A stretch of DNA of 35,796 bases from NCBI GenBank assembly GCA_016875925.1, contig VGOO01000003.1:1-35796 (forward strand), in the 5' to 3' direction. Below are positions 2,941-32,884 of the stretch, piece after piece (position 1 is the stretch's first letter; each line of letters opens with the position of its first letter). Position numbers and translations under genes: made by a program. The stretch is from Chloroflexota bacterium. GTDB taxonomy: Bacteria; Chloroflexota; Dehalococcoidia; GIF9; UBA5629. Under the pieces are notes generated by a model. That model made no database searches and had not been told where the DNA came from. It saw nothing but the letters and a program-made list of their open reading frames with translations.

Positions 2941-5900
2941 ATGGGCATATCCATGAAAAACAGATTTAAGAGACCAATCGGCCTGCTGGTCATTGCCATA
3001 GCGATTATAGCCAGCATAATACCAAACACATACCCTCGCCCAGCGCTGGCCGACCCTGGCGTTCTGAAGTGGGACCGTGCCTACACGCCTGGGAGCATCG
3101 TTACCAAGAATGACATCGCCAGCCCCTGCGAGGTCAACCGCATCGCCATCGGCTCGGACGGCAAGACTTTTTACGCCGTAGACATCCCCAATGCAGACAA
3201 TTCCGCTGGCAGCAACGCCCTTTACAAATCAACAGATAGCGGCATAAGCTGGGGCGATAAAATCGGCCAGAACTTGTATCAAAGCATGTCCCCTGCTGAA
3301 CAAGCCAACTTTCGCATCTGGAATCTGGCAACTGCCCCCGATGACGTAAATTTCATAGCCGTGGTCACCAACAACGCTATCAGCAATCTACCACGAAACA
3401 TCTGGGTATCCAGCAACGGCGGCTCCCAGTGGCACAACACCAATTTCAGTGGCCCCCATAACATCAACGCCATCGATATCTCCTCAAACTACGCCAGCCA
3501 TGACATTTGCATCGGCACCAGAGACGGCAATGGCAACGGCAATGTCTGGGTTCTGAATGGCCCAGATTACCTCACCTGGGCAGACCAGGCATTCACCGGA
3601 GACATTATGTCCCTGGAGTTTTCTCCCTCATACCAAAACGACTTTGCCATTGCTCTTGTCTATTCAAATGCCAAGGGAACATACGTTAATGTGGGATTCC
3701 ATGACGTTAACCAAAGCTCCACCAACTGGGTAGCCTCTTATGGAGGCTCCCCCCCTGAAATCACCGCTGGCGCTGCCAGCACATCACCTAATGCCAGCCA
3801 GATTATCACCGCAGGCCTGGAGTTGCCCAGCGACTTCTCCGGCCAATCCCCCAGCTTGCGTCGCTATTACATCTGCACGGACGATGCAGGAGTCACTGGC
3901 CAAGCCGGCATTTACCGCATAGACAACACCCACTTGTACAACCTGATGAAAGCCACACCGACAAAACGGATTTGCACCATTGCTTACCACGGCACATTTG
4001 CTTCTGGCAAGCTATTAGCCGGCGAGGTGTTGGGCAACACCCGCGCTGCCACCGTCATGACATGGTTCACCGATTCGCCCACCACCTGCCCCATACCCTG
4101 CTGGTATCCCGCTCTAAAGCCAGCCACCGGCGCCGCCGGCAGCGATAGCTGTGCCGGCTCGGGCTACGGCAACGCCCAGGTCGCATGGTCTCCCGATGGT
4201 TCAATCGCCTATGCAGGCACCGCCAGCAGCGCCCCACTGCGCCCCGGCCCCGATTGGCCAACGCCATATCTAACAGGACAACCACTGGACGAATCGGCCT
4301 TCTCGCTTAGCCGTAATAACGGTGAGACCTGGAATCAGCTCGCCCTGATAGACACCCAAATCAGCCGCTTCACAGACATCGCCCCAGCACCCAATTGCTC
4401 GACCCTCTACCTAGCTTCTGTAAGTGACAATGTCAATTGTTCAGGATTCGACAGCGTCTGGCGTAGCCAGGGTTCACCCCTGGGCAACGATTGGGAACGC
4501 GTACTCTGCCAGCTAACCACAGCGCAGGATTGCGCCATCGGACAAACAGACAACGCCATTCTGGGGCTGGCCGGCAACAAACCTGATGGACAAATTGTTT
4601 TCTGGGCAGCCGTAGGTACCACCAAACTCATGTGGTCGCCAGACTTCGGAGATTACTGGACCAATATAAATACCAGGCTAGCCATACAGGACATGGCACC
4701 AGAGGACAGCAAGACCCTGTACCTCCTCAGCCCCGACGGCTGGGTGCAGAAGTTCAGTTATAGCGGGACTGGCTGGGTTCTGGAGCAGAACACGCTAACA
4801 GAGCTCGGTGCTGCTTACAGCATCGCCACCGCCTATACCGGAATAACGCCGGACAACCACAAGGGACATGTAATCGTGAGCGGGACTGGCGTCGGGCCTT
4901 ATGACGTTGCCTATTCCATAGACGGTGGGAATACCTTCAGCCATGTTCCCACCTCGCTTCCCACGCAAGGAAACACGCTGGTGGTCGCCAGTTCCGCCTA
5001 TAGAAGCGATGGCTATATCCTGGCTATAAACTCAGGTGGCATGTACGCCTGTGGCATCTACTCCGGAACCGACGAGTGGGAAACATGGTGGGGCGGTATC
5101 GCCTGGCCCACCCCGGTCACCAGCCTGGCCATATCCCGCAACTACAGCTTCTACTTCTGTGAACCAGCTACCTGGGCCTCAGCCACGCCCTACGTCAGAT
5201 GGTCAGCAGCTCTCGCAGGCTTAGACCCAACCGTTTCGCTGGGAACAGCAGACCAACCAACCAGAAGATTCAGGATATGCGGCGGCATGGAATTGGGTGA
5301 CCCTATAACCATCTGGACTATCGACCAGCAGCCCTACAATCCTCCCCAGGGTGGAGTTTGGAATTACACCGACACGCTGGCATGGAACGGCCCCAGGCCA
5401 GTGGCACCGATATCAGAGGCAGCTGTGGACTGCGACCCTGTCTCCGGCAGGGCTGGCCAGATAGATTTGCAATGGAAGCCTATCTCCCTATCTCGCGGAT
5501 ATCGAATCGAGATAGCCAAGGACGAAGACTTTGCCCTGAAGGTCGCTGACATTGGCAATATATGGGGAGGAAAGACCTCATCTCTCAGCCCGATTCCCGC
5601 TCCTACCACATATGCCCCTTACGTGCCGCCCGACCTCGATGCTCCGGCTTTAGTCATCCCGCCAAGCGGTGGCACAGTAATAGACGCCAATGGTAATACC
5701 TGGAATGTGCCCCCGCTGGAAGCCAACCACACCTATTACTGGAAGGTCACTGTTCAGGATGTTGTCACCGGCGATGCCATCACCAGCCCGTCATCATGGC
5801 GCGAGATATTCAAAGTACGGCCCGGCCTGCCAGTCAACGCTAAATACCTGGGACCGCAACTGCTGTCTCCCAATAATGGTTGCATCGGTTGCAGCATCAA

Positions 5901-6252
5901 ACCGGCATCATTTTCCTGGTCGCCTTTCCAGGGGACAACCAGATACAGGTTCGTACTGGCCAAAGACCCGACTATGACCGAGGTCATCACGGACACCGAA
6001 GTCAACACCACAGCCTATGAATTCAGCGGCATTCTGGAACCTGGCATCATCTACTTCTGGCGCGTAAAAGCACTTGAACCGTTCCCCAGCGACTGGAGCC
6101 CCACTTTTTGCTTCCAAACGCAACCCAATCCTGTTCCACAATCCACACAAAATTCGCCAGCAGTTCCGGCTTGGACATGGGCAATTATCATCATCTGCCT
6201 GCTCATAGACATTGCCTTACTCACCTTCATCCTCCACCGCCGCTTGCGATAG
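2941..6252 (+). CDS. Secreted BNR/Asp-box propeller protein with Fn3-like repeats and C-terminal membrane anchor (putative S-layer-type protein)
   Basis: This is a 1103-residue surface protein; starting at ATG 2953 would give a tighter signal peptide, and neither start has a clear SD. A signal peptide (LLVIAIAIIASIIP, cleavage near ALA-D) leads into a long beta-propeller region with Asp-box motifs (STDSGISW, SSNGGSQW, SRNNGETW, SIDGGNTF). A CPIPCWY motif and a second Cys-containing loop may form disulfides. The last ~250 residues hold two Fn3-like modules (YRIEIAKDEDF and YRFVLAKDPTM), followed by a membrane helix (WAIIIICLLIDIALLTFIL) and RRLR, placing the bulk outside the cell. It is paralogous along its length to 8549-11734 and over the propeller to 31199-32884. 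BNR-repeat proteins of this size are the putative S-layer proteins of Dehalococcoides; a structural surface role is inferred. Confidence 0.85.
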   Translation: MGISMKNRFKRPIGLLVIAIAIIASIIPNTYPRPALADPGVLKWDRAYTPGSIVTKNDIASPCEVNRIAIGSDGKTFYAVDIPNADNSAGSNALYKSTDSGISWGDKIGQNLYQSMSPAEQANFRIWNLATAPDDVNFIAVVTNNAISNLPRNIWVSSNGGSQWHNTNFSGPHNINAIDISSNYASHDICIGTRDGNGNGNVWVLNGPDYLTWADQAFTGDIMSLEFSPSYQNDFAIALVYSNAKGTYVNVGFHDVNQSSTNWVASYGGSPPEITAGAASTSPNASQIITAGLELPSDFSGQSPSLRRYYICTDDAGVTGQAGIYRIDNTHLYNLMKATPTKRICTIAYHGTFASGKLLAGEVLGNTRAATVMTWFTDSPTTCPIPCWYPALKPATGAAGSDSCAGSGYGNAQVAWSPDGSIAYAGTASSAPLRPGPDWPTPYLTGQPLDESAFSLSRNNGETWNQLALIDTQISRFTDIAPAPNCSTLYLASVSDNVNCSGFDSVWRSQGSPLGNDWERVLCQLTTAQDCAIGQTDNAILGLAGNKPDGQIVFWAAVGTTKLMWSPDFGDYWTNINTRLAIQDMAPEDSKTLYLLSPDGWVQKFSYSGTGWVLEQNTLTELGAAYSIATAYTGITPDNHKGHVIVSGTGVGPYDVAYSIDGGNTFSHVPTSLPTQGNTLVVASSAYRSDGYILAINSGGMYACGIYSGTDEWETWWGGIAWPTPVTSLAISRNYSFYFCEPATWASATPYVRWSAALAGLDPTVSLGTADQPTRRFRICGGMELGDPITIWTIDQQPYNPPQGGVWNYTDTLAWNGPRPVAPISEAAVDCDPVSGRAGQIDLQWKPISLSRGYRIEIAKDEDFALKVADIGNIWGGKTSSLSPIPAPTTYAPYVPPDLDAPALVIPPSGGTVIDANGNTWNVPPLEANHTYYWKVTVQDVVTGDAITSPSSWREIFKVRPGLPVNAKYLGPQLLSPNNGCIGCSIKPASFSWSPFQGTTRYRFVLAKDPTMTEVITDTEVNTTAYEFSGILEPGIIYFWRVKALEPFPSDWSPTFCFQTQPNPVPQSTQNSPAVPAWTWAIIIICLLIDIALLTFILHRRLR

Positions 6253-8548: not shown

Positions 8549-11500
8549 ATGCGCAGATTTAAAACAGGGTTACTTCACAAACCCGATAGAATTCACCGAA
8601 AGAGGCAGGTTCTTAAACCCGCCAGCCATCTCCAACAGCTCGTACTAACCTTGGCTTTATTCATAGCTGTCTGCCTTAGCCTCTTTCCTGCTTCAAACTC
8701 AGCCCAGGCTGACACTCTAAAGTGGACCGTGGTTGACACACCCAGCGCCCAAAATAACATTGTCCTAAGCCCATCCGAGGTCAATGCCATCGCCATCGAC
8801 CGTGATGGCAGAACCTTCTACGCTATCGATATACCCAACGGCAAGGTATTTAAATCAGTCAACAGTGGTATTGGATGGGATAATATCACGACGATTTTGA
8901 CCAACGCCGGCGCCGTTATGCCGGCCTGGCACATAGCACTAGCACCGGATAATCCCAACTTCGTAGCCATAGTAACCAGCACCGCCGCTGCGCCCAGAAG
9001 GGTTTTTGTCTCGGTCGACGGGGGTAACAATTGGCATGACACCAACTGCACAGCCACCAGCAACATCAGCGCACTTGACGTGTCACCAAATCGGAACGGC
9101 TACAACGTCATGGTTGGCACCAGAACCGGAGCCGGCAACGGTGATATACTCACTTACAGAGCCGTAGGCATGGACAACTGGGCATCCCAGGGATTTATCG
9201 GCGATGTTCTGTCAGCCAGGTTTTCGCCCAATTATGCCGCAGATGCTAGCCTGGTAATCGTTGCCGCTAGAGCCACCGGTACCACTATCAATCTTGGCAT
9301 TCACGACCCGGCCGCCAATACCACCAACTGGAGTACCTGGAGCCCAGTAGAGGTGACCACAGGAGGTGCCGGCACTTCACCAACCTCAGCCAACATTATA
9401 AGCGCCGACTTGGAACTCCCCATAGATTTTTCCGGTCAGGCTCCTTCCCTGCGCCGGTTCTACGTCAGCACTGACGCCCCTGTACCCAACGCCGGAATCT
9501 ATCGCTTCGATGATACCGCAGGCTACTTGCTCATGCCTGCCGCATCCACCAAGCGGATTTCCAGCATCGCCTATTTCGGCACCTATGCATCGGGCAAACT
9601 GCTGGCTGGAGAGGTTACAGGCAACCCAAACTCAGCGCAGGTCAATACCTGGTTCACCGATGCTCCTACCACCTGTCCTATCCCCTGCTGGTACCAGGCT
9701 AAGAAGCCACCCACCGGTGCCGCCGGCACAGATGCTTGTGCCAGCTCAGGCTACGGTAACGCCAAAGTCGCCTGGTCAGCCGATGGTTCAGTTGCCTATG
9801 CTGCTACCGCTAGTAGTCTTAGCCTGATTCCTGGTCCCAACTGGCACACTCCATACCTAACAGGAGAGGATTTTGATGAATCGGCATTTTCCATCAGCCG
9901 AGATAACGGTCAACTCTGGAACCAGCTAAGCCTGATAGATACAGGAATCAGTTTCCTCTCAGATGTAGCTGTTTCAGCTAACTCTGATACCCTGTACCTG
10001 GCATCCATCAACAGCCATGCTGGCTGCAACGGCTTTGACAGCCTGTGGCGAGGCCATGGCCAGTCCACCTACAAGACCTGGGAACGCGTGCTGTGCCTAA
10101 CCGCCACCACCAATTATACCCTCGTCAGGATGAACCAGGCTAAACCGCAGTCTGTTTTCCTGGGCATCTGTTCCACTGCTAACCTGTATGCATCGCTAGA
10201 TGGAGGCCAAAGCTGGCAAAATATCTTCCCCGGCATCAACGTAACTGACTTCGCAGTCTCACAGGGCAAGACAGCATTACAAATATACGTGCTGGAAAAC
10301 AACTATGTGTGCAGAGCTGAAGGCAGCTTCCAAGCCTGGCAATGGAAACAGAAAATGGACACCGGATTGGCAACAGGACATTCCATAAACGTCTCGCCCA
10401 ACGGCATCATCACCGTGGGCGATGCTGGCGAGGGTAAGGTAGCCTTCTCTGCAGACAATGGCAACCAGTTCATCAGCCTCCCCCCTGTGCCTGCGCCAGG
10501 TAACATTCACGCTGTCGCCGACCCCAGAATCACAAAATACATCGTCATTTACGCCGGCAGCGACAGCCCTGGTGGCAACATCGACGCATGGGTGGTCGGC
10601 GCCACTCAGAACTGGATAGATATGGGAGCGCCACAGCGAAGTACCTACGGGCTGGCTCAAGGCGGAACGCTATACGGCGCCTGGTCAAAAGGCGGGAACA
10701 GCGGAGTCAACCGCACGCTGAACCCTGAGTCCCTGGCAGCTACCTTTGTAGAATGGGATAACCTCACCGCTGGCCTACCCGCTGGCGTGGTCTTCACCAG
10801 AGAGCCATCATCGCTGAAAATATCAGGAAGCGTTGACCTCTGGGCCATCGATAACCGCCCATACACAGCTAACACCGGCAGACTCTGGGTTTTCTACGAT
10901 TGCTTCGGTGTTGGCCCCCAAATTACAACGCCGCCAAGCCGGGAATTGCTTTTGGCAGCCCCTACCCCAATAGCACCAGCAGCCAATGCCATCATGCCGA
11001 TAGACCATGACAAAGGCACTATCGCCGACATTGTATTCAGATGGAGACATCCTACTCAGGCACGAAAATATGAGCTGCTGGTGGCCAAAGACAAAGAGTT
11101 CAGCCAACTGGTTACTCAGCAGCCCATAATTCCGGACAGCCCGCTCATGCCCACCTGGACGCTATCCGCCAAGGAAATAGCGCTGGAACCCACCTCCACC
11201 TACTACTGGAAAGTGCGAGTCACGCGCGATGCCACCAGCGAACCCGCCGAAGGCCAGTGGTCAGAGATAATACCCTTCTCTATAGCCGCAGCGCCAGAGA
11301 AAGAGCTATCTGCCCCCGGTCCCGAGTTGCTCACGCCAGCCAACGGCGAAACTATGGTTAACCAATCACCATCCTTTACCTGGCAACCAGTAAGCGGGGC
11401 CAATAAATATGAACTCACCCTGGCTAAAGATAGAAACCTGAAACAGCCAATCATTAGAGCCCAGATCTCCGGGACAGCCTATCAATATGATGGGACATTA

Positions 11501-11734
11501 GAACCAGGCAGAAGCTACTCCTGGCAGGTGAAAGTGATTGAGCCCCTCGTCAGCCAGCCCAGTCCCCTGTTCAGCTTCACTGTGTCACCGGAGCCCGCCA
11601 AACCACAGCAGAAAACAGATGGCATACCACAGACGGTAAACATAGTTACCCTGCTCTGGATAGCCATACCACTTCTCATAGTCATAATTGCTATCATCTG
11701 GCTCATCGCAGCACGAAACCGCTCCTACCGCTGA
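8549..11734 (+). CDS. Secreted BNR/Asp-box propeller protein, second paralogue, membrane-anchored
   Basis: This 1061-residue paralogue of 2941-6252 has the same order: signal peptide (long basic n-region, then LVLTLALFIAVCLSLFP, cleavage near AQA-D), propeller with Asp boxes (SVDGGNNW, SRDNGQLW, SLDGGQSW), the CPIPCWY motif and downstream Cys loop, two Fn3-like modules (YELLVAKDKEF, YELTLAKDRNL), a C-terminal helix (LLWIAIPLLIVIIAIIWLIA) and RNRSYR. The two proteins align throughout (for example SPSLRR[YF]Y and GKLLAGEV), so they arose by duplication flanking the Ig-like gene. No clear SD precedes ATG 8549; it may be translated from an operon message. A structural or adhesive surface role is inferred from the family; no catalytic sialidase residues were identified. 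Confidence 0.83.
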   Translation: MRRFKTGLLHKPDRIHRKRQVLKPASHLQQLVLTLALFIAVCLSLFPASNSAQADTLKWTVVDTPSAQNNIVLSPSEVNAIAIDRDGRTFYAIDIPNGKVFKSVNSGIGWDNITTILTNAGAVMPAWHIALAPDNPNFVAIVTSTAAAPRRVFVSVDGGNNWHDTNCTATSNISALDVSPNRNGYNVMVGTRTGAGNGDILTYRAVGMDNWASQGFIGDVLSARFSPNYAADASLVIVAARATGTTINLGIHDPAANTTNWSTWSPVEVTTGGAGTSPTSANIISADLELPIDFSGQAPSLRRFYVSTDAPVPNAGIYRFDDTAGYLLMPAASTKRISSIAYFGTYASGKLLAGEVTGNPNSAQVNTWFTDAPTTCPIPCWYQAKKPPTGAAGTDACASSGYGNAKVAWSADGSVAYAATASSLSLIPGPNWHTPYLTGEDFDESAFSISRDNGQLWNQLSLIDTGISFLSDVAVSANSDTLYLASINSHAGCNGFDSLWRGHGQSTYKTWERVLCLTATTNYTLVRMNQAKPQSVFLGICSTANLYASLDGGQSWQNIFPGINVTDFAVSQGKTALQIYVLENNYVCRAEGSFQAWQWKQKMDTGLATGHSINVSPNGIITVGDAGEGKVAFSADNGNQFISLPPVPAPGNIHAVADPRITKYIVIYAGSDSPGGNIDAWVVGATQNWIDMGAPQRSTYGLAQGGTLYGAWSKGGNSGVNRTLNPESLAATFVEWDNLTAGLPAGVVFTREPSSLKISGSVDLWAIDNRPYTANTGRLWVFYDCFGVGPQITTPPSRELLLAAPTPIAPAANAIMPIDHDKGTIADIVFRWRHPTQARKYELLVAKDKEFSQLVTQQPIIPDSPLMPTWTLSAKEIALEPTSTYYWKVRVTRDATSEPAEGQWSEIIPFSIAAAPEKELSAPGPELLTPANGETMVNQSPSFTWQPVSGANKYELTLAKDRNLKQPIIRAQISGTAYQYDGTLEPGRSYSWQVKVIEPLVSQPSPLFSFTVSPEPAKPQQKTDGIPQTVNIVTLLWIAIPLLIVIIAIIWLIAARNRSYR

Positions 11735-14071: not shown

Positions 14072-14103
14072 TTAATAATTCATTAACATTTTGGGGATAT
14101 ACT
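14072..14103 (+). promoter_or_regulatory. PhoP-box-like direct repeat and -10 element, site A
   Basis: TTAATA-ATTCA-TTAACA (14072-14088) is an 11-bp-phased direct repeat, followed after 9 nt by TATACT (14098-14103). It precedes the zinc-ribbon gene. The geometry is identical to sites B, C and D, and the spacer ATTCA is the same as in site D. Activator sites of OmpR-family regulators typically sit at this distance from the -10. Confidence 0.65.
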
Positions 14104-14185: not shown

Positions 14186-14458
14186 ATGCGGCAAATACAT
14201 TTCTGCCCTAATTGTGGTGTACCTGTTGCTTATGTCGGGAGATTTTGCGGCAACTGCGGTGGCAATTTGAACCAATGCCAGCGGCCGCCAATTTGTAATA
14301 ACACCAGCACAGTTCCCCAAGTGCAGCCCAAAACCTCCAAAGGCACCGCAACACCAATGCGTACTGAGATTCTCAAGCTGATGGCAAATCTGTTAGAAAA
14401 GCCCTCTAATACAACAAGAATCCCCAATAATCGAACTGGAACACCCTCTAAAAATTAA
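14186..14458 (+). CDS. Small zinc-ribbon protein
   Basis: I start at ATG 14186, 9 nt after AGGAGG; the ORF-track GTG start at 14132 lacks an SD. The 90-residue product begins with a zinc ribbon built from two knuckles, CPNCG and CGNCGG (about residues 7-27), followed by a Thr/Asn/Pro-rich, probably disordered tail with one helical patch (ILKLMANLLEK). There is no signal peptide or membrane segment. Its promoter carries site A, so it is probably co-regulated with the two-component system. The zinc-ribbon family is common and uninformative about function; it could be a nucleic-acid or protein adaptor. A fifth Cys pair (CQ...IC) lies just after the ribbon. Confidence 0.7.
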   Translation: MRQIHFCPNCGVPVAYVGRFCGNCGGNLNQCQRPPICNNTSTVPQVQPKTSKGTATPMRTEILKLMANLLEKPSNTTRIPNNRTGTPSKN

Positions 14459-14486
14459 CAGGATTTTAACATTGGCCTGTTATCAT
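14455..14486 (+). promoter_or_regulatory. PhoP-box-like direct repeat and -10 element, site B
   Basis: TTAACA-GGATT-TTAACA (14455-14471) has the 11-bp phase, with TATCAT (14481-14486) 9 nt downstream. The first half-site overlaps the stop codon of the zinc-ribbon gene. It drives the small secreted protein gene. Confidence 0.7.
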
Positions 14487-14525
14487 GAGGCTATACTGCA
14501 TATAAAGGAGGTAAGCAAGACGGAA

Positions 14526-14978
14526 ATGTGGCGAAGCAAAAAGTTCATTCTGGTCATGGTTTTGGCTGCTGTACTATTAGTTGGCAGCATCGGCGGCATA
14601 GCCTTTGCTGCTGACAACGGTGATAGCAACCAGCCCAAGGCTCGAAATGGAGCTATGCTGGACAAAGTTTGCGAAATCTACCAGCAAAAGACAGGAGTCG
14701 CTATCGACAAAGAAGTGCTGAAAGAGTCATTTGCCCAGGCCATGAGCGAGATGCGACCTCAGACTTCACCAGCGCGCACCGGGAAGGGCCCCGAAGCCAT
14801 GCAAGACCATCTCAAGAAACTGGTCGACGATGGCAAGATAACCCAGGAACAACTTGATGCGCTTAATAAATGGTGGGAATCAAGGCCTGACGTCCCGCTT
14901 GGCTTCGGCCCTGCCGCAGGTCCCGGTAAATTCCGTGGTATGGGTGGACCGTGTGTCCCACCTCCACCGGCAGAATAG
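14526..14978 (+). CDS. Small secreted protein of unknown function
   Basis: I choose ATG 14526 over the TTG at 14472 because the latter overlaps the promoter and AAAGGAGGT lies between them; the 14-nt gap from SD to ATG is long. The 150-residue product has a clean signal peptide (FILVMVLAAVLLVGSIGG, cleavage near AFA-AD). The mature part is a short helical domain with VCEIYQQKTGVAIDKE and LVDDGKITQEQLDALNKWW, then a Gly/Pro-rich tail ending in VPPPPAE. The GKITQEQ-type helix resembles DUF2680-like extracytoplasmic proteins, which I cannot confirm. It is preceded by site B, followed by a strong terminator, and lies directly upstream of the regulator/kinase operon. By analogy with CpxP/Spy-like accessories it could be a secreted modulator or stress product of that system. 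Confidence 0.75.
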   Translation: MWRSKKFILVMVLAAVLLVGSIGGIAFAADNGDSNQPKARNGAMLDKVCEIYQQKTGVAIDKEVLKESFAQAMSEMRPQTSPARTGKGPEAMQDHLKKLVDDGKITQEQLDALNKWWESRPDVPLGFGPAAGPGKFRGMGGPCVPPPPAE

Positions 14979-15017: not shown

Positions 15018-15053
15018 AAGAAAAGAGGGGGGAATAAGTCCCCCTCTTTTCTT
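15018..15053 (+). terminator. Strong Rho-independent terminator, likely bidirectional
   Basis: AAGAAAAGAGGGGG (15018-15031) pairs perfectly with CCCCCTCTTTTCTT (15040-15053) around an 8-nt loop. The A-rich and T-rich flanks allow termination on either strand. It isolates the secreted-protein gene from the regulator operon. Confidence 0.92.
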
Positions 15054-15092: not shown

Positions 15093-15124
15093 TTAACATT
15101 TACTTAACATTTGCGGTATAACAT
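15093..15124 (+). promoter_or_regulatory. PhoP-box-like direct repeat upstream of the regulator operon, site C
   Basis: TTAACA-TTTAC-TTAACA (15093-15109) has the 11-bp phase; the surrounding repeat is CTTAACATTTA/CTTAACATTTG. Nine nt downstream is the weak hexamer TAACAT; alternative -10 elements are TATAAC (15117) and CATAAT (15122). It implies autoregulation. Confidence 0.65.
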
Positions 15125-15159: not shown

Positions 15160-15855
15160 ATGTCAGCTAACAGAGTACTTGTAGTTGATGACGACACCAA
15201 AACGGTGGACTTGGTCAAGCTCTACCTGAACCGAGACGGCTACCGAGTCTTCACCGCTCAGAATGGCATTGAGGCACTACGCTTGGCCAGGGAGAGTCAC
15301 CCCGACCTTATCGTCCTCGACCTTATGTTACCGGGCATTGACGGGCTTGAAATCTGCCGCAGGCTAAGGAACGAATCAGACGTGCCCATAATCATGCTCA
15401 CCGCCAGAACCACTGACGAAGACAAGCTGACAGGCTTGGACATGGGCACAGATGACTATGTAACCAAGCCATTCAGCCCCAAAGAGCTAGCCGCCAGGGT
15501 GCGGACAGTCCTGAGACGTCTCCCCGGAGAACGCGGTCCTAACGAGATCAGACATGGCGACATAGTGGTAAATTTCCCAAGACGGGAAGTATCACTTGCC
15601 GGCAGACCCCTGCACCTTACCACGATTGAATTCAAACTACTGGCAACTATGGCCAAGGAGCCTGGCAGAATTTTCAGCCGTGCCCAGCTTGTAGAAAAGG
15701 CCCTTGGCTACGACTTTGAAGGAAATGACCGAACAATCGATGTGCATATCCTCAACCTTCGCCGAAACCTCGAGCCAGACCCCAAGCGCCCAAAGTATAT
15801 TAAAACCGTGTACGGCGATGGCTACAAACTCGCTGAGATAGCAAATGATACATAG
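15160..15855 (+). CDS. OmpR/PhoB-family response regulator
   Basis: The 231-residue protein has a receiver domain (acidic VVDDD, phospho-acceptor Asp54 in VLDLMLPG, switch Thr in MLTART, conserved Lys in TKPFSP) and a C-terminal winged helix (about residues 130-228, with [15 protein letters not shown] and [16 protein letters not shown]). It overlaps the kinase gene by 11 nt, indicating a translationally coupled pair. The 11-bp-phased TTAACA repeats at four nearby promoters fit the tandem binding mode of this family and match the half-site published for Bacillus subtilis PhoP. I therefore infer that it controls its own operon, the two small genes upstream and the exporter downstream. AAAGG lies 9 nt before the ATG. 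Confidence 0.95.
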
Positions 15856-17257
15856 CTTGCAATTTCGCCTTCTGGCAGCTTTTGCTCTTGTGATTCTAAT
15901 CACTATTAGCAGCATATTCTTCCTTATCAGCCAAGCCACCATAGCAGAAGTTCGCCAATTCGGAGAGAGGTTCGAACGCGCATATACTGGCAAGATGAGA
16001 GCCGACCTATCCCGTTACTACTCCACACAAGGAGGATGGGAAGGCATTCAACCTGTGGTAGAGCAATGGGGCGAATTATATAAGCAACGCATCATAGTAA
16101 CCGATATTACAGGCACGACAATTGCCGATTCCAAGAAAGAGCTAGTAGGCAAACCTTATTCTCCTGATTCACCTGGCATGCTAATACAAAGCCCCCGTAA
16201 GGGAGCAGAAGATACCGGCACTGGTACTGAGGGCTTCGGAAGACTGCTACAACCCCCCTGGGAGCGAGAAACGATAGGCATGCTCTATATTAGCCCGGGG
16301 CTTTTAGCAGATTCAGAGCGAGTTGCCCTGCAAATCATCTACAGCAAAATAGGCCGTTTCTTCCTCTGGGGAGGCTTGATAGCAGTTGGTATCGCTCTGG
16401 CAATAACGTTCTTCATGTCACGACGAATTCTCTCCCCGGTCAGAGCGCTCACCGCCGCTGCTCAAAGCCTGGGACGCGGCGATTTCTCCCAACGGGTACA
16501 AATCAAAGACAAGGGTGAGGTAGGGGAACTTACCAATGCCTTCAACTCCATGGCAAGCGACCTGGAGCGTGCCGAGTCATTGCGACGCAATATGGTAGCA
16601 GATGTAGCCCACGAGCTGAGAACCCCGCTTTCCAACTTGCGCGGCTATCTCGAGGCAGTTCACGACGGGATTATCAAACCAGATGTGGATACCATCCACT
16701 CCCTCAATGAAGAAGCAATGCTGCTATCACGGCTGGTCGACGACCTCCAGGAACTCAGCCTGGTTGAGGCAGACAAAATAAAGCCAACCCGCCAACCCGA
16801 ACAAATAGCTGACCTCATCAAACAGGCGATGGCAACGACACAATCTCAAGCTACAGCAAAGGGTCTATCTTTGACAGCAAACTTGCCTGACAACCTGCCA
16901 CCAGTCGATATCGACCAGCAACGAATCGCTCAGGTTCTGCACAATCTAATAGAAAATGCCATTGCCCACACCTCTGAAGGCGGTACCATTACAATCGATG
17001 CCAGGGAATGCCAGAACTGGGTCCAGGTAAGCGTCACCGACACCGGAGAAGGCATCCCGCCTGAGGACCTGCCTAATATCTTTGAGCGTTTCTACCGCGT
17101 GGACAAGTCCCGAGCCAGAGCCACCGGCGGTACCGGCCTAGGCCTTACCATCGCCAAGCGCTTGGTCGAAGTTCATGGCGGCAAAATCGAAGTTCAAAGC
17201 GAGCTGGGCAAAGGGAGCCGCTTTACGTTTACCATCCCTGTATTTGCCCAATCTTAA
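15845..17257 (+). CDS. Membrane sensor histidine kinase, partner of the OmpR-type regulator
   Basis: The 470-residue kinase has TM1 at about residues 9-29 ([16 protein letters not shown]) and an extracytoplasmic sensor of about 135 residues containing [17 protein letters not shown]2 ([19 protein letters not shown]) at about residues 173-195 is followed by a HAMP domain, a HisKA domain with [13 protein letters not shown], and HATPase_c with [22 protein letters not shown] and [12 protein letters not shown]. This is the PhoR/WalK/BaeS architecture without a PAS domain. The ATG overlaps the regulator's 3' end. The ligand cannot be read from the sequence; a role in envelope stress or phosphate sensing would each fit part of the context. 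Confidence 0.95.
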
Positions 17258-17285
17258 CAATTCATTAACAGTTTTCTGCTATGAT
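17254..17285 (+). promoter_or_regulatory. PhoP-box-like direct repeat and -10 element, site D, before the exporter operon
   Basis: TTAACA-ATTCA-TTAACA (17254-17270) is a perfect half-site pair at 11-bp phase, followed after 9 nt by TATGAT (17280-17285). The first half-site includes the stop codon of the kinase gene, as site B does for the zinc-ribbon gene. It should drive the four-gene export operon. Confidence 0.72.
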
Positions 17286-17320: not shown

Positions 17321-19276
17321 ATGAAAGCCTTACGAATGAATAACAAAACGCTACTGAAAATCATGGCATCGATGATGGCTATCTGCGCCATCATCCCGCT
17401 TGGCATAGGTTGCGTCGCTAAAAAGTCCACGCCAGCACAACCGACACAGACAGTCGCCATACAGCGTGGCAATTTGACAATATCTGTACCGGTAGATGGC
17501 AATTTGGTAATGCCCCAGGCTTTTGACCTCCGTTTCGGCACACCAGGCGATGTCAGGGACGTACTGGTAGAAGAAGGAGACCACGTAAAAGCAGGAGCAA
17601 TACTGGCAATGCTGGACAACACCACGCAGAGATTGGACATCCAATCGGCCAACGCCTCTTTGCAGAGAATCTTAAGCAATCTCTACCAAACCGTGCCACG
17701 TCTGCCCCAATTTCCGAACCAACTTTACGATGTCAACACGGTGACTACGACTACTACTACAACTGTTTGGGATTGGCGTGAAGGGTACGATTCTCTGGGT
17801 AATCCCATAACCGATTCTCCACTTCCTGGCGGGAATCAAGGATACATCGGAGTTCCCAGTACCGTTACCACGACCACGACCAGGACTACTATTAAAGCAA
17901 TACCAAATACTCTCCATTCAGATACCAGTTATCCATTTTACTACCCCAACCACACAGCCTTGATAGCGTTTGCCTGGGCACAAGAAGCGCTCTCCAGAGC
18001 AGATGAACTGTTTCAGTCTAAGAATTACGCCGACGCAGAATCTGAACTATACGTAGCCGCAAATGACCTGGAAACCTGCGCCAAAATAATCGAGGACACC
18101 ATTACTAACCCACAGTCGGGATTAGGCGGCTCAGGACCCCTCCCCGAGCAGGATGACCTGACATTCCTGCTCCAGCAGAACGAACCATTATCTGTAAGCT
18201 TCATCCTGGAATTACAACAACTGGTTGAGCTAATCAAGCAATGCCAGGCAGACATGGAGAAGGTCCGCTCCTTGACCACGGAGGGAAAAAACGACGAGGC
18301 CAAATCCTTATTTGCCACCATCCAGGGCAAGATGAAAGACATAGGCAAGTCAATCCTGAACAACGTCAACTTGATTGAAAAGCGCCACGTAGGCATGGTC
18401 TACGGCAAGAACATATGTCTCTACCTGTACAAAGCCGCTGACGACAGCCTTAATGAAGCATTTGCTGCAATTGAAAAGGGCAGTATCGATTCGCCAGAGT
18501 TCAAAAACAATCTACGCGTGGCCCAGCACCGGATGGCACTCTGCAACGCTGTTTTGGGGAGCAACGACTATGTATTGCAGCATGGCCTCTCTCTGAAAGC
18601 TGAGCACCAATACAAAGTGGACCTGCAGAAATCACTGGTAAACCTTGGAAACAAGCAGGACGATTTCCTAAAAACAATAATACTTGCGCCTTTTGACGGC
18701 ACGGTAGTCAGCGTAGGAGTAAAGAAAAACGACGTCCTATCCGCCCAGGACTATTCCTCCAAGGGCACCATCCAGATTGTTGATACAACGGCTGTCAAAT
18801 TCGAGGGGCTAGTTGACGAAATTGACATCCTGAAAGTTAAAACTGGACAAAAGGCCACCATTACCGTAGATGCCATACCCAATAAAGTATTTACCGGCAT
18901 AGTGTCGTTCATTTCCCCTTACGGTGAGGCAGGCACGTCGAACGTTGTTAAATTTGCTGTGACCATACAGCTTGACCCCACCGATATAGAGCTAAAGGGA
19001 GGTCTCACCGCCACAGCCGATATCGCCATAGAAACTGTTGATAACGTTGTATTGGTACCACTCCGAGCTATAAGCAGCACTGCTCAGGGTGTCTTTGTAA
19101 CCGTCATAGACGAGACAACAGGTCAGACCGAAAAGCGCGAGGTCACCCTCGGTAGGCAAAACTTGCAGTTCGCCGAAGTGTTGTCTGGCCTTGAAGAGGG
19201 GGAGAGAGTAGTGATGGAGGTCAAAATCACCGGAGCACCGGTCGTTCAAGGCTTCCCACGCCCATCAGGAAGATAG
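17321..19276 (+). CDS. HlyD/MacA-like export adaptor lipoprotein, first of two
   Basis: The 651-residue protein (or 646 from ATG 17336; neither start has a clear SD) has an N-terminal signal ending at LGIGC, suggesting lipid attachment at Cys31. The biotinyl-lipoyl-like half-motif VLVEEGDHVKAGAILAMLDN at about residues 85-105 is separated from its partner (IILAPFDGTVVSVGVKKND, about 450-470) by some 340 residues. That insert holds Thr-rich stretches (VTTTTTTTV) and TPR-like helices (ADELFQSKNYADAESELY). The C-terminal beta-barrel and membrane-proximal part (TGIVSFISPYGEAG, GGLTATADIAIE) is typical of MacA-like adaptors. It is followed after 5 nt by a paralogue and then MacB-like genes. The insert is far longer than the usual coiled-coil hairpin and would replace TolC contact in a monoderm. 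Confidence 0.87.
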   Translation: MKALRMNNKTLLKIMASMMAICAIIPLGIGCVAKKSTPAQPTQTVAIQRGNLTISVPVDGNLVMPQAFDLRFGTPGDVRDVLVEEGDHVKAGAILAMLDNTTQRLDIQSANASLQRILSNLYQTVPRLPQFPNQLYDVNTVTTTTTTTVWDWREGYDSLGNPITDSPLPGGNQGYIGVPSTVTTTTTRTTIKAIPNTLHSDTSYPFYYPNHTALIAFAWAQEALSRADELFQSKNYADAESELYVAANDLETCAKIIEDTITNPQSGLGGSGPLPEQDDLTFLLQQNEPLSVSFILELQQLVELIKQCQADMEKVRSLTTEGKNDEAKSLFATIQGKMKDIGKSILNNVNLIEKRHVGMVYGKNICLYLYKAADDSLNEAFAAIEKGSIDSPEFKNNLRVAQHRMALCNAVLGSNDYVLQHGLSLKAEHQYKVDLQKSLVNLGNKQDDFLKTIILAPFDGTVVSVGVKKNDVLSAQDYSSKGTIQIVDTTAVKFEGLVDEIDILKVKTGQKATITVDAIPNKVFTGIVSFISPYGEAGTSNVVKFAVTIQLDPTDIELKGGLTATADIAIETVDNVVLVPLRAISSTAQGVFVTVIDETTGQTEKREVTLGRQNLQFAEVLSGLEEGERVVMEVKITGAPVVQGFPRPSGR

Positions 19277-19281
19277 ATAGC

Positions 19282-20985
19282 ATGATGACAAGAGGAAATA
19301 TTTTCATAGTCGCCATAACGGTAAGTCTGATTTCTCTGCTGTTCAGTGGTTGTGGTAAAAGTGCTGCACCTGTCGGCAAGACCTTCGAAGTAAAAAAAGG
19401 AGACCTGAACATCACCATATCCACCGACGGCTACCTTACGATGCCTAACCAGTTCGACCTCAAGTTTGGGACCACAGGACAGGTCGCCGAAATACTGGTA
19501 GAAGAAGGAGAGCAAGTAAAACAGGGTGCCCTGTTGGCCATGCTCGATAACACATCACAGAAAAACGCAATTAAAACAGCACTGTTTGATATACAGACGG
19601 CAAGGAGCAACATAACACTGGGATGTGGCACAGACCGCATTCCTTACACCTATGCCGACCTGAGCGTGCCCCGCTTAATGAAAGAGGCACAAAGAGACAT
19701 AGACAAGGCTATTGGCTATTTTGAGCAGGGGAACTACAAAGATGCCGGTTACTGGCTGGTCATGACCTACTTCGACGTCGAGGTGTGCGAGGATTTAATC
19801 AAGTCCAGGCCTGATGCTGCTGCGCTGGCCGGGATACAGTCAAATTCAACTTACTATCCGGATATCAACGCCGGCAGCCCTTCGCCTCCACCAGAGTATA
19901 TTGATATGGTCATCTCCTACCTGCAGAATTACCGCGCCAGGCTACTGGATATTTCCCGGCTACTGAAGGCTGGCTCCTACGCAGAAATCAATCCTAAACT
20001 CGAACAAGTGCACCTGGATATGCGTACAGTATCACAACTGGCTGTAAGCACAGTATATAAGAAAGGTAGAAGCATGTTCGAGTACCCTGATACAGCTACC
20101 AGCGCTGACTTCCTCCAGGTCGCTATACGCCAACTACAGGAGTTGGAGAAATACATTGCCCAGGATAATGCCAACCCTGTAGAAGCTGCCAAGAAGCTGT
20201 ATATTGCCAAGGTTAGCCTACTGGTGGGCAAAGATGTCCTGGAAAACCAGACGCGTATCTTCGAGAGCGGAGGCAGCATCAACTGGAAGACATTAGAACA
20301 ATACAACATCGACCTGCAAAGCGCGGAGATGGGTTTATATAAAAACAAGCAGGAAATCATGAAGACAGTCATCATAGCCCCTTCCGACGGCGATGTGGTC
20401 AGCGTTGACCTCAAGAAATCTTATGTCCTCTCCGCACAGGACTACTCAGCGCGAACGGCCATCAAGCTCGTCGATACAAGTACTATCAAATTCCAGGGGA
20501 CAGTAGACGAGATAGATATTGCTAAAGTAAAACCCGGGCAAAAGGCGCGAATAACCATAGATGCCGTGCCTGACAAGACATTCACCGGTACGGTGAAATT
20601 TATCTCCCCATTCGGCACACAGACTGGCAGGGTCATTAAGTTCGCCGTCACCATAGAGATGGACCCCACCGATGTCGAGTTGAGAGGTGGCTTAAGTGCT
20701 ACCGCCGAAATCAGCATATACAACGCCAAAGACGTGTTGCTGGTTCCCGTATCAGTGATTGCCACCACACCGGCAGGACCTGTAGTAGCAGTAGTCAATG
20801 AGGCCACAGGCCAAGTTGAGAGAAGGCGAATTACCATCGGCATGCAGACATTCGAGTTTGCTGAAGTGCTTTCCGGTCTTAAGGAAGGCGAAAAAGTACA
20901 GGTGATAAGCCAGGAAGCCATTAGAAGCCCGTCCGCCACACAGCAGCGTCCGGGTGCGCCAGTACCCATGCGCCTTATCAGATAG
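19282..20985 (+). CDS. HlyD/MacA-like export adaptor lipoprotein, second paralogue
   Basis: The 567-residue paralogue of the preceding gene has a lipobox FSGC (Cys24), a half-lipoyl motif ILVEEGEQVKQGALLAMLDN, a helical insert (YFEQGNYKDAGYWL), the second half IIAPSDGDVVSVDLKKSYV, and barrel segments TGTVKFISPFG and GGLSATAEISIY. The insert is shorter than in its neighbour and lacks the Thr-rich stretches. The gene starts 5 nt after the first, with AGGAAG upstream, so the two are co-translated. Two non-identical adaptors serving one ATPase/permease suggest either a heteromeric collar or two alternative adaptors. Substrate unknown. Confidence 0.87.
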   Translation: MMTRGNIFIVAITVSLISLLFSGCGKSAAPVGKTFEVKKGDLNITISTDGYLTMPNQFDLKFGTTGQVAEILVEEGEQVKQGALLAMLDNTSQKNAIKTALFDIQTARSNITLGCGTDRIPYTYADLSVPRLMKEAQRDIDKAIGYFEQGNYKDAGYWLVMTYFDVEVCEDLIKSRPDAAALAGIQSNSTYYPDINAGSPSPPPEYIDMVISYLQNYRARLLDISRLLKAGSYAEINPKLEQVHLDMRTVSQLAVSTVYKKGRSMFEYPDTATSADFLQVAIRQLQELEKYIAQDNANPVEAAKKLYIAKVSLLVGKDVLENQTRIFESGGSINWKTLEQYNIDLQSAEMGLYKNKQEIMKTVIIAPSDGDVVSVDLKKSYVLSAQDYSARTAIKLVDTSTIKFQGTVDEIDIAKVKPGQKARITIDAVPDKTFTGTVKFISPFGTQTGRVIKFAVTIEMDPTDVELRGGLSATAEISIYNAKDVLLVPVSVIATTPAGPVVAVVNEATGQVERRRITIGMQTFEFAEVLSGLKEGEKVQVISQEAIRSPSATQQRPGAPVPMRLIR

Positions 20986-21016
20986 CCAAATTGCCCAGTA
21001 TGATGTGAGCGACACA

Positions 21017-21133
21017 ATGGAACCACAGAAGAGAACGCCAAAAAAGTCCCCCCCATCTTTGCGAGTCCTGATGCAACCCGGACAAAGCGAACTCTATACC
21101 ACCGCATCTCTAGAGACCAGCGAAAATGATTGA
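21017..21133 (+). CDS. Possible 38-residue leader ORF coupled to the macB-like gene
   Basis: In the 140-bp gap within the exporter operon, an ATG at 21017 opens a basic peptide beginning MEPQKRTPKKSPPS and ending at TGA 21131-21133. It overlaps the ATPase start in ATGATTGA. That overlap would permit translational coupling, and the ATPase itself has no good SD. The ORF also lacks an SD and resembles nothing I know, so it may be chance. Confidence 0.3.
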   Translation: MEPQKRTPKKSPPSLRVLMQPGQSELYTTASLETSEND

Positions 21134-21794
21134 AATTGAAAAAATAAGCAAGATATACGATTTAGGCTCGGTAAAGGTAACCGCCATTGACAACATATCT
21201 CTCCGTTGCCATCAGGGAGAGTTCATCTCCATCATGGGAGCCTCCGGCTCCGGAAAATCCACTGTGATGAACATACTTGGCTGCCTTGATAGCCCAACAC
21301 ACGGAAGCTACCGTCTGGATGACCAGGATGTCAGCAAGCTTAACGACGACCAACTAGCCAAGATAAGAAACAGCAAGATAGGCTTCATCTTCCAGTCTTA
21401 TAACCTCTTGCCTAAAACCACAGCATTGGCTAACGTGCAATTACCGCTAATCTACGCAGGCACAGACCACAGAAAACAGCGCGCCATAGAAGCCCTGGAG
21501 GCTGTGGGTATAAGCAAAAGAGCGCATCACCGCCCATCTGAGATGTCAGGCGGGGAACAGCAACGTGTGGCCATCGCTCGTGCCTTAGTCAATAACCCAT
21601 CGATAATCCTGGCTGACGAACCGACCGGAAACCTCGATACTACAACGAGTCATAGCATAATGTCCATTCTATGCGAGCTAAATAGAAAAGGTATTACCAT
21701 AGTCATCGTAACCCACGAGGAAGATATAGCAGCATTCACGCACAGGACTATCTATCTGAGGGACGGGAAAATCACCGACGAGAAAAGAAGATGA
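21126..21794 (+). CDS. macB: ABC transporter ATP-binding protein, MacB/LolD type
   Basis: The 222-residue ATPase has Walker [11 protein letters not shown]-loop [12 protein letters not shown] signature MSGGEQQR, Walker [13 protein letters not shown] and the switch His in VTHEE. Its compact size and motif set place it in the MacB/LolD/FtsE group of type VII ABC systems, which drive mechanotransmission rather than classical substrate translocation. It overlaps the permease by 4 nt (ATGA). In this genome the ATPase and permease of MacB are separate polypeptides, as is normal in Gram-positive-type systems; the symbol is given by family resemblance. Confidence 0.93.
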
Positions 21795-22996
21795 ACATCT
21801 GGGAGAGCATCAAAACGGCCTGGCAGTCTATATTCGCCAATAAAATGCGCTCATCACTCACCATGCTCGGCATCGTTATCGGCGTCAGCGCAGTAGTCCT
21901 GCTGGTGGCGCTTGGCCAGGGATTCCAGGTCAACATGAAGACGACTTTCGAGAATATGGGCGCCAGTGCCCTCTACATATCAAGCTCGACAGACAGGGCG
22001 GTAAAAAGCGTGCGGGAGCTAACACTTGAAGACGCCCAGGCTTTGGCAGACCCAAAGATGGCCCCATCGATAGCCGTGGTCTCTCCCACGCTAAGCAAGA
22101 GCGTCAGTATCCAGTATGGCAACAACAACGTAACCACGCAGGGAATAGGTGTCACACCTGTGATAACACAGATAAGGAACTATACCATGGACAAAGGTCG
22201 GTTCATCACCGAGCAAGATAACGCAACCAGGCAGAATGTGGTAGTTCTGGGCTACCAGACTGCCCTTGACCTGTTCGGCAGCGAGTCCCCAATAGGCAAG
22301 AGCCTGCGCATTGATGGCATCAAGTTTCAGGTTATAGGCACAATCCAAAGGCTCGGTGGATTCGGAGGCGATGGCTACGCACTGATGCCACTCACCACCA
22401 TGCAATCTAAACTGGTGGGTGGCAACAGCATCGGCCAGATTGCCGTAAAGGCCGTCAGCCCCGACCAAGTGGACTCCGCAATCGCCGAGATGACCAGCAT
22501 CATAAGAGCCAGGCATTACATCAGACCCGGGGCACCAGACGACTTCACCATCAGGGACATGCGCGAGACGCTGGAGAGCATGCAGCAGACATTGGCGAGC
22601 TTTTCCATCTTCTTGGGTAGCGTTGGCGCTATCTCGCTCCTCGTTGGTGGCATCGGCATCATGAACATCATGCTGGTCTCGGTAACAGAGCGCACCCGTG
22701 AAATAGGTATACGCAAAGCCATTGGAGCCAGGCGCCGTGACATTCTGCTGCAGTTCCTTATCGAAGCCGCCGCCCTCAGCTTCACAGGCGGCTTGATAGG
22801 CCTACTCCTGGGGCTGGCTGGCTCATCGCTAATGCGCAACATTCCCATGGGCAACATGACCATCAGTGCAATTATTTCGCCAACCATTGTGATTATTGCT
22901 CTTGCCGTATCGATAGGAACAGGGCTAATATCAGGAACTTACCCAGCTTCCCGCGCCGCCAGGCTCGACCCCATCGAATCCCTGCGTCACGAGTAA
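21791..22996 (+). CDS. MacB-like ABC transporter permease (MacB_PCD plus FtsX)
   Basis: The 401-residue permease has the type VII topology: TM1 (SSLTMLGIVIGVSAVVLLVALG) right after a short amphipathic start, a large extracytoplasmic MacB_PCD domain (about residues 45-270), and three C-terminal helices of the FtsX domain, with GAISLLVGGIGIMNIMLVSV and the conserved ERTREIGIRKAIGARRRDIL loop. It overlaps the ATPase gene by 4 nt. With the two adaptor lipoproteins it should make a MacAB-like machine exporting, for example, a peptide, lipid or siderophore; the substrate is not indicated. It ends the operon. Confidence 0.94.
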   Translation: MNIWESIKTAWQSIFANKMRSSLTMLGIVIGVSAVVLLVALGQGFQVNMKTTFENMGASALYISSSTDRAVKSVRELTLEDAQALADPKMAPSIAVVSPTLSKSVSIQYGNNNVTTQGIGVTPVITQIRNYTMDKGRFITEQDNATRQNVVVLGYQTALDLFGSESPIGKSLRIDGIKFQVIGTIQRLGGFGGDGYALMPLTTMQSKLVGGNSIGQIAVKAVSPDQVDSAIAEMTSIIRARHYIRPGAPDDFTIRDMRETLESMQQTLASFSIFLGSVGAISLLVGGIGIMNIMLVSVTERTREIGIRKAIGARRRDILLQFLIEAAALSFTGGLIGLLLGLAGSSLMRNIPMGNMTISAIISPTIVIIALAVSIGTGLISGTYPASRAARLDPIESLRHE

Positions 22997-31111: not shown

Positions 31112-31198
31112 AGACTCACACTCGTCTTCTCGCTATAGCCAGGCTTCAATCAAATCATGGTGGATTGAAAGGTGACAGTCAGCTACAATACTAGTAAG

Positions 31199-32884
31199 GT
31201 GAATAAGCCGAGACCGCTCAAAAAAACCTTAAAACTACTAGCTATCATCTCCCTTGTTACTCTAGCAGCCGCATCGTGCGGACCTAACCTGCCACCTGTC
31301 ACCCCTCCACAACCCACCCAACTTACCCTACCATCCCCACCACCAGAACCACCCCCAGACAACACAGCACCAGAGACCATAATCAACAGCAGCCCTGGCA
31401 AAACCGTCAACCAGAACGCCGTCACCTTCCAATGGACAGGTACGGATGATAAAACGCCCACACCCGACCTGACCTACTCCTGTTACCTTGCCGGCTACGA
31501 TGCTGATTACTCCCCATTCACCAGCGATACCACCAAGACTTACTCCAACCTGCCAGATGGCACCTATACATTTTATGTCAAATCCAGAGACGCCGCCGGC
31601 AACGAAGACAAAACACCAGCCAGTGTGGAGTTCACCGTCCAAACTATCAAGCCATCGCCTGTCACGCCAGCAGCCCCGGTAGACAGCAGTCTGCTCATAG
31701 TCCCCAATAGCAATGTCAGCCATATCGCAGTTGGCCCCGATGGTAAAGCCATATACGCCATCGATGCCTTCAACGCCAAACTGTACAAGTCGGAGCAAGG
31801 CGGCTTTGGCTGGATTGACTCATCCAAAGGCATCGGTGGAGCCTCCGCCTGGGACGGACTTGCCGTAGCACCTGATGATGCCAATGTGGTCGCCATAATT
31901 GCCGATAGTGGCACCGAAGTCTATTTATCCACCAACGGTGGCACTAGCTTCTACCGAATGGGGCTGGCCGGCACACTCAAGGCTAGCGAACGGGCTAAAT
32001 GCCTCGCCCTCTCACCAGTCTATGGCCAAGGCCGGCGTGAACTGGCTGTGGGCACCTCCACAAGCAATGGTGGCGGTAGAGTCCTGCTCAGCATAAGCTC
32101 TGGTATGAGCACTGCTTGGGCAGACATCAGCACCGGAGTCAGCGGTTGGCTACCTAGCAGCCCTCCCATAGCTGGCGCCGATGTCTTCGCCATCAAATAC
32201 TCTCCCTCCTTCCCATCCGATGGCACGCTCCTGGCTATAGTCGCCAGCAAGCCACCGCCAGATACCGACGATACCTATCTCTACATCGGTTTCAAAGATA
32301 TGGGCACCAGCAACATCGTCTGGAACTCCTTTCCCGGCTATCCTGTAGAAATATGCCAGCCTGGAAGCGATAGCCCAGGCACACCACTCACCTACGCTGA
32401 CCTAGCCCTACCCGCAGACTACAACGGTGCCAACCCTGCACATCGCCACGTCTATGCTTGCTGGACAGACAATCCAGCAGGGTCAACATCTGTAGGCAAT
32501 CCCAATGACAGTGTCTATCGCCTCGATGATACCATCGTCTACAGGCTGCTGGTACACAACGACGTAATCTGCAGTCTGGCACACTATGGTAGGTTCAGCC
32601 GCGGCAAGCTGCTTGCCGGCGCCTTAAACGCCAGGCCAGGTACCTTCGCTACAGGCCCACAGGTTTACTTCAGCTTCAACCCACAATCTGCATACCCCGC
32701 CTGGCAGGAAAGCCGTAAGCCCCCAACCGGCCCAGGCCAGGCACGAGTCGCCTGGTCTCCCGATGGCAACCTGGCCTATTGCGGCACAAGCTCCACTGCT
32801 CCAGGTGGCCACGACCAGAGCGCTTTCTCTATTAGCCGCTACAACGGCCTTACCTGGAACCAGACCGGACTGATAGACCTCTAG
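31199..32884 (+). CDS. Lipoprotein with N-terminal Ig/Fn3-like domain and half-length BNR propeller (third paralogue)
   Basis: I choose GTG 31199 because it gives a compact lipoprotein signal (RPLKKTLKLLAIISLVTLAAASC) and a TACAAT -10 at 31184-31189 lies just upstream; the ORF-track start is GTG 31172. After a Pro-rich linker comes one Ig/Fn3-like domain (VTFQWTGTDDKTP, GTYTFYVKSRDAAGN) at about residues 45-140. The rest aligns with the N-terminal propeller half of the two large paralogues (IYAIDAFNAKLYKSEQ, KLLAGALN, RVAWSPDGNLAYCGT), with Asp boxes STNGGTSF and SRYNGLTW. It stops at WNQTGLIDL, exactly where the others continue WNQ..LIDT for about 580 residues. It lacks the Fn3 pair and C-terminal helix, so the lipid replaces the membrane anchor. 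It also lacks the CPIPC Cys loops. Confidence 0.8.
   Translation: MNKPRPLKKTLKLLAIISLVTLAAASCGPNLPPVTPPQPTQLTLPSPPPEPPPDNTAPETIINSSPGKTVNQNAVTFQWTGTDDKTPTPDLTYSCYLAGYDADYSPFTSDTTKTYSNLPDGTYTFYVKSRDAAGNEDKTPASVEFTVQTIKPSPVTPAAPVDSSLLIVPNSNVSHIAVGPDGKAIYAIDAFNAKLYKSEQGGFGWIDSSKGIGGASAWDGLAVAPDDANVVAIIADSGTEVYLSTNGGTSFYRMGLAGTLKASERAKCLALSPVYGQGRRELAVGTSTSNGGGRVLLSISSGMSTAWADISTGVSGWLPSSPPIAGADVFAIKYSPSFPSDGTLLAIVASKPPPDTDDTYLYIGFKDMGTSNIVWNSFPGYPVEICQPGSDSPGTPLTYADLALPADYNGANPAHRHVYACWTDNPAGSTSVGNPNDSVYRLDDTIVYRLLVHNDVICSLAHYGRFSRGKLLAGALNARPGTFATGPQVYFSFNPQSAYPAWQESRKPPTGPGQARVAWSPDGNLAYCGTSSTAPGGHDQSAFSISRYNGLTWNQTGLIDL

Follow-up and report, generated by a model that had tools for sequence, protein, structure and literature searches.

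The exported protein and its neighbourhood

The window, that is the whole stretch of 35,796 nucleotides analysed here, is contig C3 in the genome of a Dehalococcoidia bacterium and carries on its forward strand a gene for a 150-aa exported helical protein resembling DUF2680 (14526-14978), which we call SP. The assignment is based on translation, homologues, a structure model and Pfam. A ribosome-binding site, AAAGGAGGT, can be read at 14504-14512, and AAAGGAGG is kept as ribosome-binding site in the upstream regions of SP homologues. As the first-pass annotation of the window had claimed, SP lies directly before a regulator/kinase pair: an OmpR/PhoB-family response regulator (15160-15855; Pfam Response_reg and Trans_reg_C) comes next, and its gene overlaps by 11 bases with that of a sensor histidine kinase (15845-17257), to which Pfam assigns an extracytoplasmic PAS-like domain, HAMP, HisKA and HATPase. 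Then follows a MacAB-like efflux operon (17321-22996; Pfam and NCBIfam) with two HlyD/MacA-type adaptors, a MacB-like ATPase (21126-21794) and a permease (21791-22996). On the other side of SP there is a small zinc-ribbon-like ORF (14186-14458), which has weak DZR matches and a homologue in the congener (G001). The window also contains large related secreted proteins (2941-6252, 8549-11734 and 31172-32884) whose weak matches are Sortilin/BNR-like and Ig-like; in another genome, a related protein (L109 in G042) is preceded by an exact copy of the promoter box described below.

The signal peptide proposed for SP from first reading is recognizable in residues 1-28, with an n-region MWRSKK, a hydrophobic core and a predicted cleavage site AFA/AD. 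Similar signal peptides are read in 20 SP homologues, and reading the SP sequence revealed no lipobox. The export signal is strongly supported by computation. The mature part consists of a short domain and a Gly/Pro tail. When modelled by AlphaFold with 20 homologues, helices are predicted at 37-56, 62-76, 89-101 and 107-119, forming two hairpins, the second of which is GKITQEQLDALNKWW, while the tail is disordered. The model would agree with the short helical mature domain claimed before, with a pLDDT of 75-82 over most of the core and a mean of only 60. A Foldseek search of this low-confidence model against the PDB gave no match with E below 2.5. SP is 91% conserved in the congener and about 40-71% in many relatives. 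A disulfide C49-C143 was considered and set aside; both cysteines are found in many members, one or none in several.

After SP comes an intrinsic terminator (15018-15053) with a 15-bp stem, a folding energy of -28.8 kcal/mol and a z-score of -6.6, so the strong terminator noticed earlier is real by these measures. Strong hairpins also lie between SP and the regulator in 14 of 15 orthologous loci. SP therefore probably forms a transcript of its own.

The promoter box TTAACA-N5-TTAACA

Is there any signal in the promoters that ties SP to the adjacent regulator? An exact TTAACA-N5-TTAACA, TTAACAGGATTTTAACA, lies in the SP promoter (14455-14471), and a -10 element TATCAT (14481-14486) follows it after 9 nt. 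A second exact copy, TTAACATTTACTTAACA, precedes the regulator gene (15093-15109), where it may serve autoregulation, and is kept in relatives; a third, TTAACAATTCATTAACA, precedes the efflux operon (17254-17270) and is kept in the congener. There is also a one-mismatch copy before the zinc-ribbon-like ORF (14072-14088), again kept in the congener, which makes this ORF a possible further member of the regulon. The whole genome (G000; 1.68 Mb, 83% complete) has only four exact copies, three of them at the SP locus; the fourth (C85:1224) precedes a small membrane/envelope protein. The congener retains all five boxes, the four exact ones and the one-mismatch copy. If up to two mismatches are allowed and the window is taken alone, four boxes are seen against 1.6 expected, which is not significant. 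The membrane/envelope protein behind the fourth exact box (L055:631-1191 in G000:C85; L116 in G001:C31) has repeated TTTET/Tyr-rich stretches and is conserved in the congener.

For the conservation of the box, 22 SP upstream regions were compared. One locus (L024), where the neighbour of SP is a different regulator (47% identity), was set apart and is without the box, leaving 21 loci of the same type. The box is found with at most two mismatches before SP in 18 of these, a score that shuffled upstream regions reach in 1.6% of cases. It lies 58-83 bp before the start codon in 17 of the 18 box-bearing loci, and in relatives a TGnTAnnAT-like -10 element follows about 9-10 nt after it. The regulator promoter has the box with at most one mismatch in all 17 same-type loci. 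Twelve relatives together hold 18 exact boxes, 11 of them at the SP locus; those elsewhere include copies before the envelope protein just described (in G001) and pstS (G008), together with some chance-looking ones, and in G042 a secreted repeat protein with an exact box before it is encoded some 3 kb away from the kinase. With an exact box so rare in the genome and its position conserved across homologues, the suggestion that SP has its own boxed promoter holds.

In B. subtilis, PhoP likewise has TTAACA as its half-site. Could SP be a phosphate-stress protein in a phosphate-starvation (Pho) regulon? The direct repeats with an 11-nt period at the SP promoter do have the geometry of a PHO box (PMC4415409), and similar tandem TTAACA repeats stand before pstS in relatives. 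There (L126-L132), the pstS gene comes after a paralogous kinase, with two or three tandem TTAACA-like repeats in the pstS promoter; in these bacteria, such repeats are probably the genuine Pho boxes. However, this pst-linked kinase is a paralogue with about 40% identity, and it coexists with the SP system in three genomes (G023, G042 and G043). The SP-linked regulator has no pst/phoU linkage, the operon at its locus is an efflux operon, and neither PhoU nor PstS was found in the 83% complete genome G000. The missing PhoU and PstS, together with the coexistence of both systems elsewhere, make the Pho reading very unlikely. The repeats before pstS beside the paralogous kinase also mean that the half-site is not unique to the SP-linked regulator; by comparison of promoters, it is common to related regulators. 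The grounds for assigning the box to this regulator are therefore that it occurs in the promoter of the regulator itself and that it is enriched at the SP locus.

Two-component linkage and family of SP in Chloroflexota

Most close homologues of SP keep the gene order: 17 lie directly upstream of the same-type regulator. For two more the contig stops there, and another genus has three that are oriented divergently to a regulator/kinase pair of a different kind. A two-component system adjoins SP in all 20 close homologues that could be assessed. About half of the distant SP loci also adjoin one, in several gene orders and including other classes of the phylum; two distant homologues (L095 and L097) lie behind what reads as a PadR-type regulator and a membrane protein. 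The idea that homologues always neighbour a two-component system is thus right for the close ones that could be assessed and fails for about half of the distant ones. Since paralogous SP-linked systems coexist in single genomes (G000 and G004; G034, G052 and G055), there are at least three distinct SP-linked systems. A shared box was sought by eye in these paralogous systems with no clear result. One paralogue in the analysed genome (L008, G000:C8:10264-11130) has several GKITQEQ-WW-SRPD repeats and stands beside its own regulator/kinase pair, and similar multi-repeat versions occur in G001, G004 and G010.

The linkage has its limits. Of the 30 best regulator orthologues, 18 stand without an SP neighbour, which marks SP as an accessory to the system rather than one of its core components. 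Then might the adjacency be just an accident of inherited gene order, with SP unrelated to the regulator? Many of the loci are related by descent, and several genera do not show the linkage, as an accident would allow. But SP and the regulator have a rare box in common, the linkage occurs in several gene orders and at least three paralogous systems, and it recurs at phylum level; what is more, a random gene is expected within 1.5 kb of a regulator in only an estimated 4-5% of cases (20 loose regulator candidates in 1.68 Mb). We consider such an accident extremely improbable. The rare common box, its conservation and the adjoining two-component systems place SP very probably in the regulon of the regulator, and that the regulator controls SP is the claim we hold most firmly. 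The first-pass annotation had described SP as wired to the kinase. At the regulatory level this stands, through the box, the position, the synteny and the paralogous systems, while reporting back to the kinase is only suggested, by a weak co-evolution signal.

To which family does SP belong? Sequence searches against Pfam, NCBIfam and the PDB gave no confident family for it. The profile of DUF2680 (PF10925), against which the protein was to be checked, aligns with its second hairpin and scores 14.4 bits, a likeness below the curated cut-off of 25. Matches at E up to 0.1 are seen in 10 of 20 aligned homologues, and the cut-off is passed by multi-repeat or distant ones (L094, 65.6 bits; L098, 60.7; L030, 27.0; L025, 25.8). 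As SP itself is below the cut-off while several homologues match or pass it, SP is, judged from its sequence, a divergent branch related to DUF2680. The profile is too insensitive as a phylum-wide probe and was found in three of 301 genomes. For LTXXQ (PF07813), no match was listed for SP or the 20 homologues at E up to 0.1, which bears out the earlier remark that the sequence is unlike CpxP/Spy. B. subtilis has one DUF2680 member. Our literature searches found no function described for DUF2680-type proteins, and nothing relevant on secreted or two-component proteins of Dehalococcoidia or Chloroflexota. The box and the synteny now suggest for this divergent DUF2680 branch a role that can be put to the test, in a Chloroflexota regulon of the stress type.

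Possible roles of SP and comparison with known systems

The box, the synteny, the terminator and the export signal of SP are strongly supported by computation. What scenario do they give? The PAS-domain sensor kinase would phosphorylate the OmpR-type regulator, which would bind at the -35 position, where the TTAACA half-sites stand in tandem (11-bp period), and would activate SP, the regulator-kinase operon itself, the MacAB-like efflux operon and a few other genes of the envelope. Binding of the regulator to the box is inferred from the promoter sequences. SP would then be exported and act beyond the membrane, as a small helical factor with a protective or chaperone-like function; we infer this effector role, in which it protects or chaperones something there. 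As a whole, the best explanation, which we regard as reasonably probable, is an autoregulated regulon of the envelope-stress type with SP as its exported product.

There is a further question of concern, does SP also act on the kinase? One answer is that it is purely a downstream effector, a chaperone-like, scavenging or surface protein that never touches the kinase. Orthologues of the kinase also occur with no SP next to them, some of the SP homologues lie away from any kinase, and Spy of E. coli, a target of BaeR, is not encoded beside baeSR (PMC7657598). On the other hand, SP is repeatedly linked physically to several paralogous kinases, and SP distances show a partial correlation with those of the kinase ectodomain. 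With regulator and kinase-core distances removed, the partial r over 17 loci is 0.33 (Mantel p 0.03, jackknife 0.27-0.39), while SP distances hardly track the kinase core (0.10) or the regulator (-0.03) over the same number of loci. This co-evolution signal is weak and suggestive only. The purely effector role thus seems about evenly balanced between true and false.

The other answer is that SP is a feedback factor like CpxP or ZraP, whose binding to the PAS ectodomain would damp (or prime) the kinase. The layout and the co-regulation of SP and kinase fit this, as does a partial correlation confined to the ectodomain. The ectodomain model (pLDDT 82) is PAS-like, flanked on one side by a long N-terminal helix and on the other by the second membrane helix. 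Its best PDB matches are WalK/YycG entries (probability 0.99-1.00, E 0.006-0.035), followed by DcuS and other extracytoplasmic PAS domains, and none reaches E 0.001; the nearest type as modelled, WalK/YycG, is one with known accessory proteins (PMC7355866). Against feedback are the weakness of the co-evolution signal and the absence of SP beside some orthologous kinases. Contact of SP with the kinase is thus speculative, and a feedback role, in which SP would also tune the PAS ectodomain and close the loop as CpxP and ZraP do, is a tentative proposal that we rate below the balance point. More tentative still is its extension to the phylum, that Chloroflexota DUF2680-like hairpin proteins might be accessory subunits that bind the ectodomains of several paralogous systems and close feedback loops, as a convergent counterpart of CpxP/ZraP. 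If feedback is true, the CpxP/ZraP design would have arisen a second time, from another protein family. As a separate observation, the congener kinase (L039:6807-8336, G001) has its second membrane segment duplicated (...LSPVR twice), which is either real or an assembly artefact.

Among known systems, E. coli BaeSR, whose OmpR-family regulator controls its own genes, the small exported protein Spy and the efflux operon MdtABCD (PMC7657598), resembles the reading of SP as a regulon product: a regulator, a small exported protein and an efflux operon with membrane-fusion proteins come under one regulator, as is probable at the SP locus. However, Spy belongs to the LTXXQ family and is encoded away from its regulator, whereas SP is unrelated in sequence and lies beside its probable one; the E. 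coli pump is of the RND type, while that at the SP locus is a MacAB-like ABC pump. With CpxP-CpxRA (PMC4160245) and ZraP-ZraSR (PMC10848872), the SP locus has in common a small exported helical protein encoded beside the two-component genes that control it, as they would control SP, and a kinase with an extracytoplasmic sensor, which in CpxA is PAS-like (PMC11078701). It differs in that SP has no LTXXQ match and lies upstream of the two-component genes in the same direction, not divergently, and kinase inhibition has been shown for CpxP while for SP it is speculative. A third comparison is WalK, which is tuned by the accessory proteins YycH and YycI (PMC7355866). Its extracellular PAS domain is the nearest to the modelled ectodomain of the SP-linked kinase, while YycH and YycI belong to another family, reside in the membrane and act as activators of the S. 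aureus kinase.
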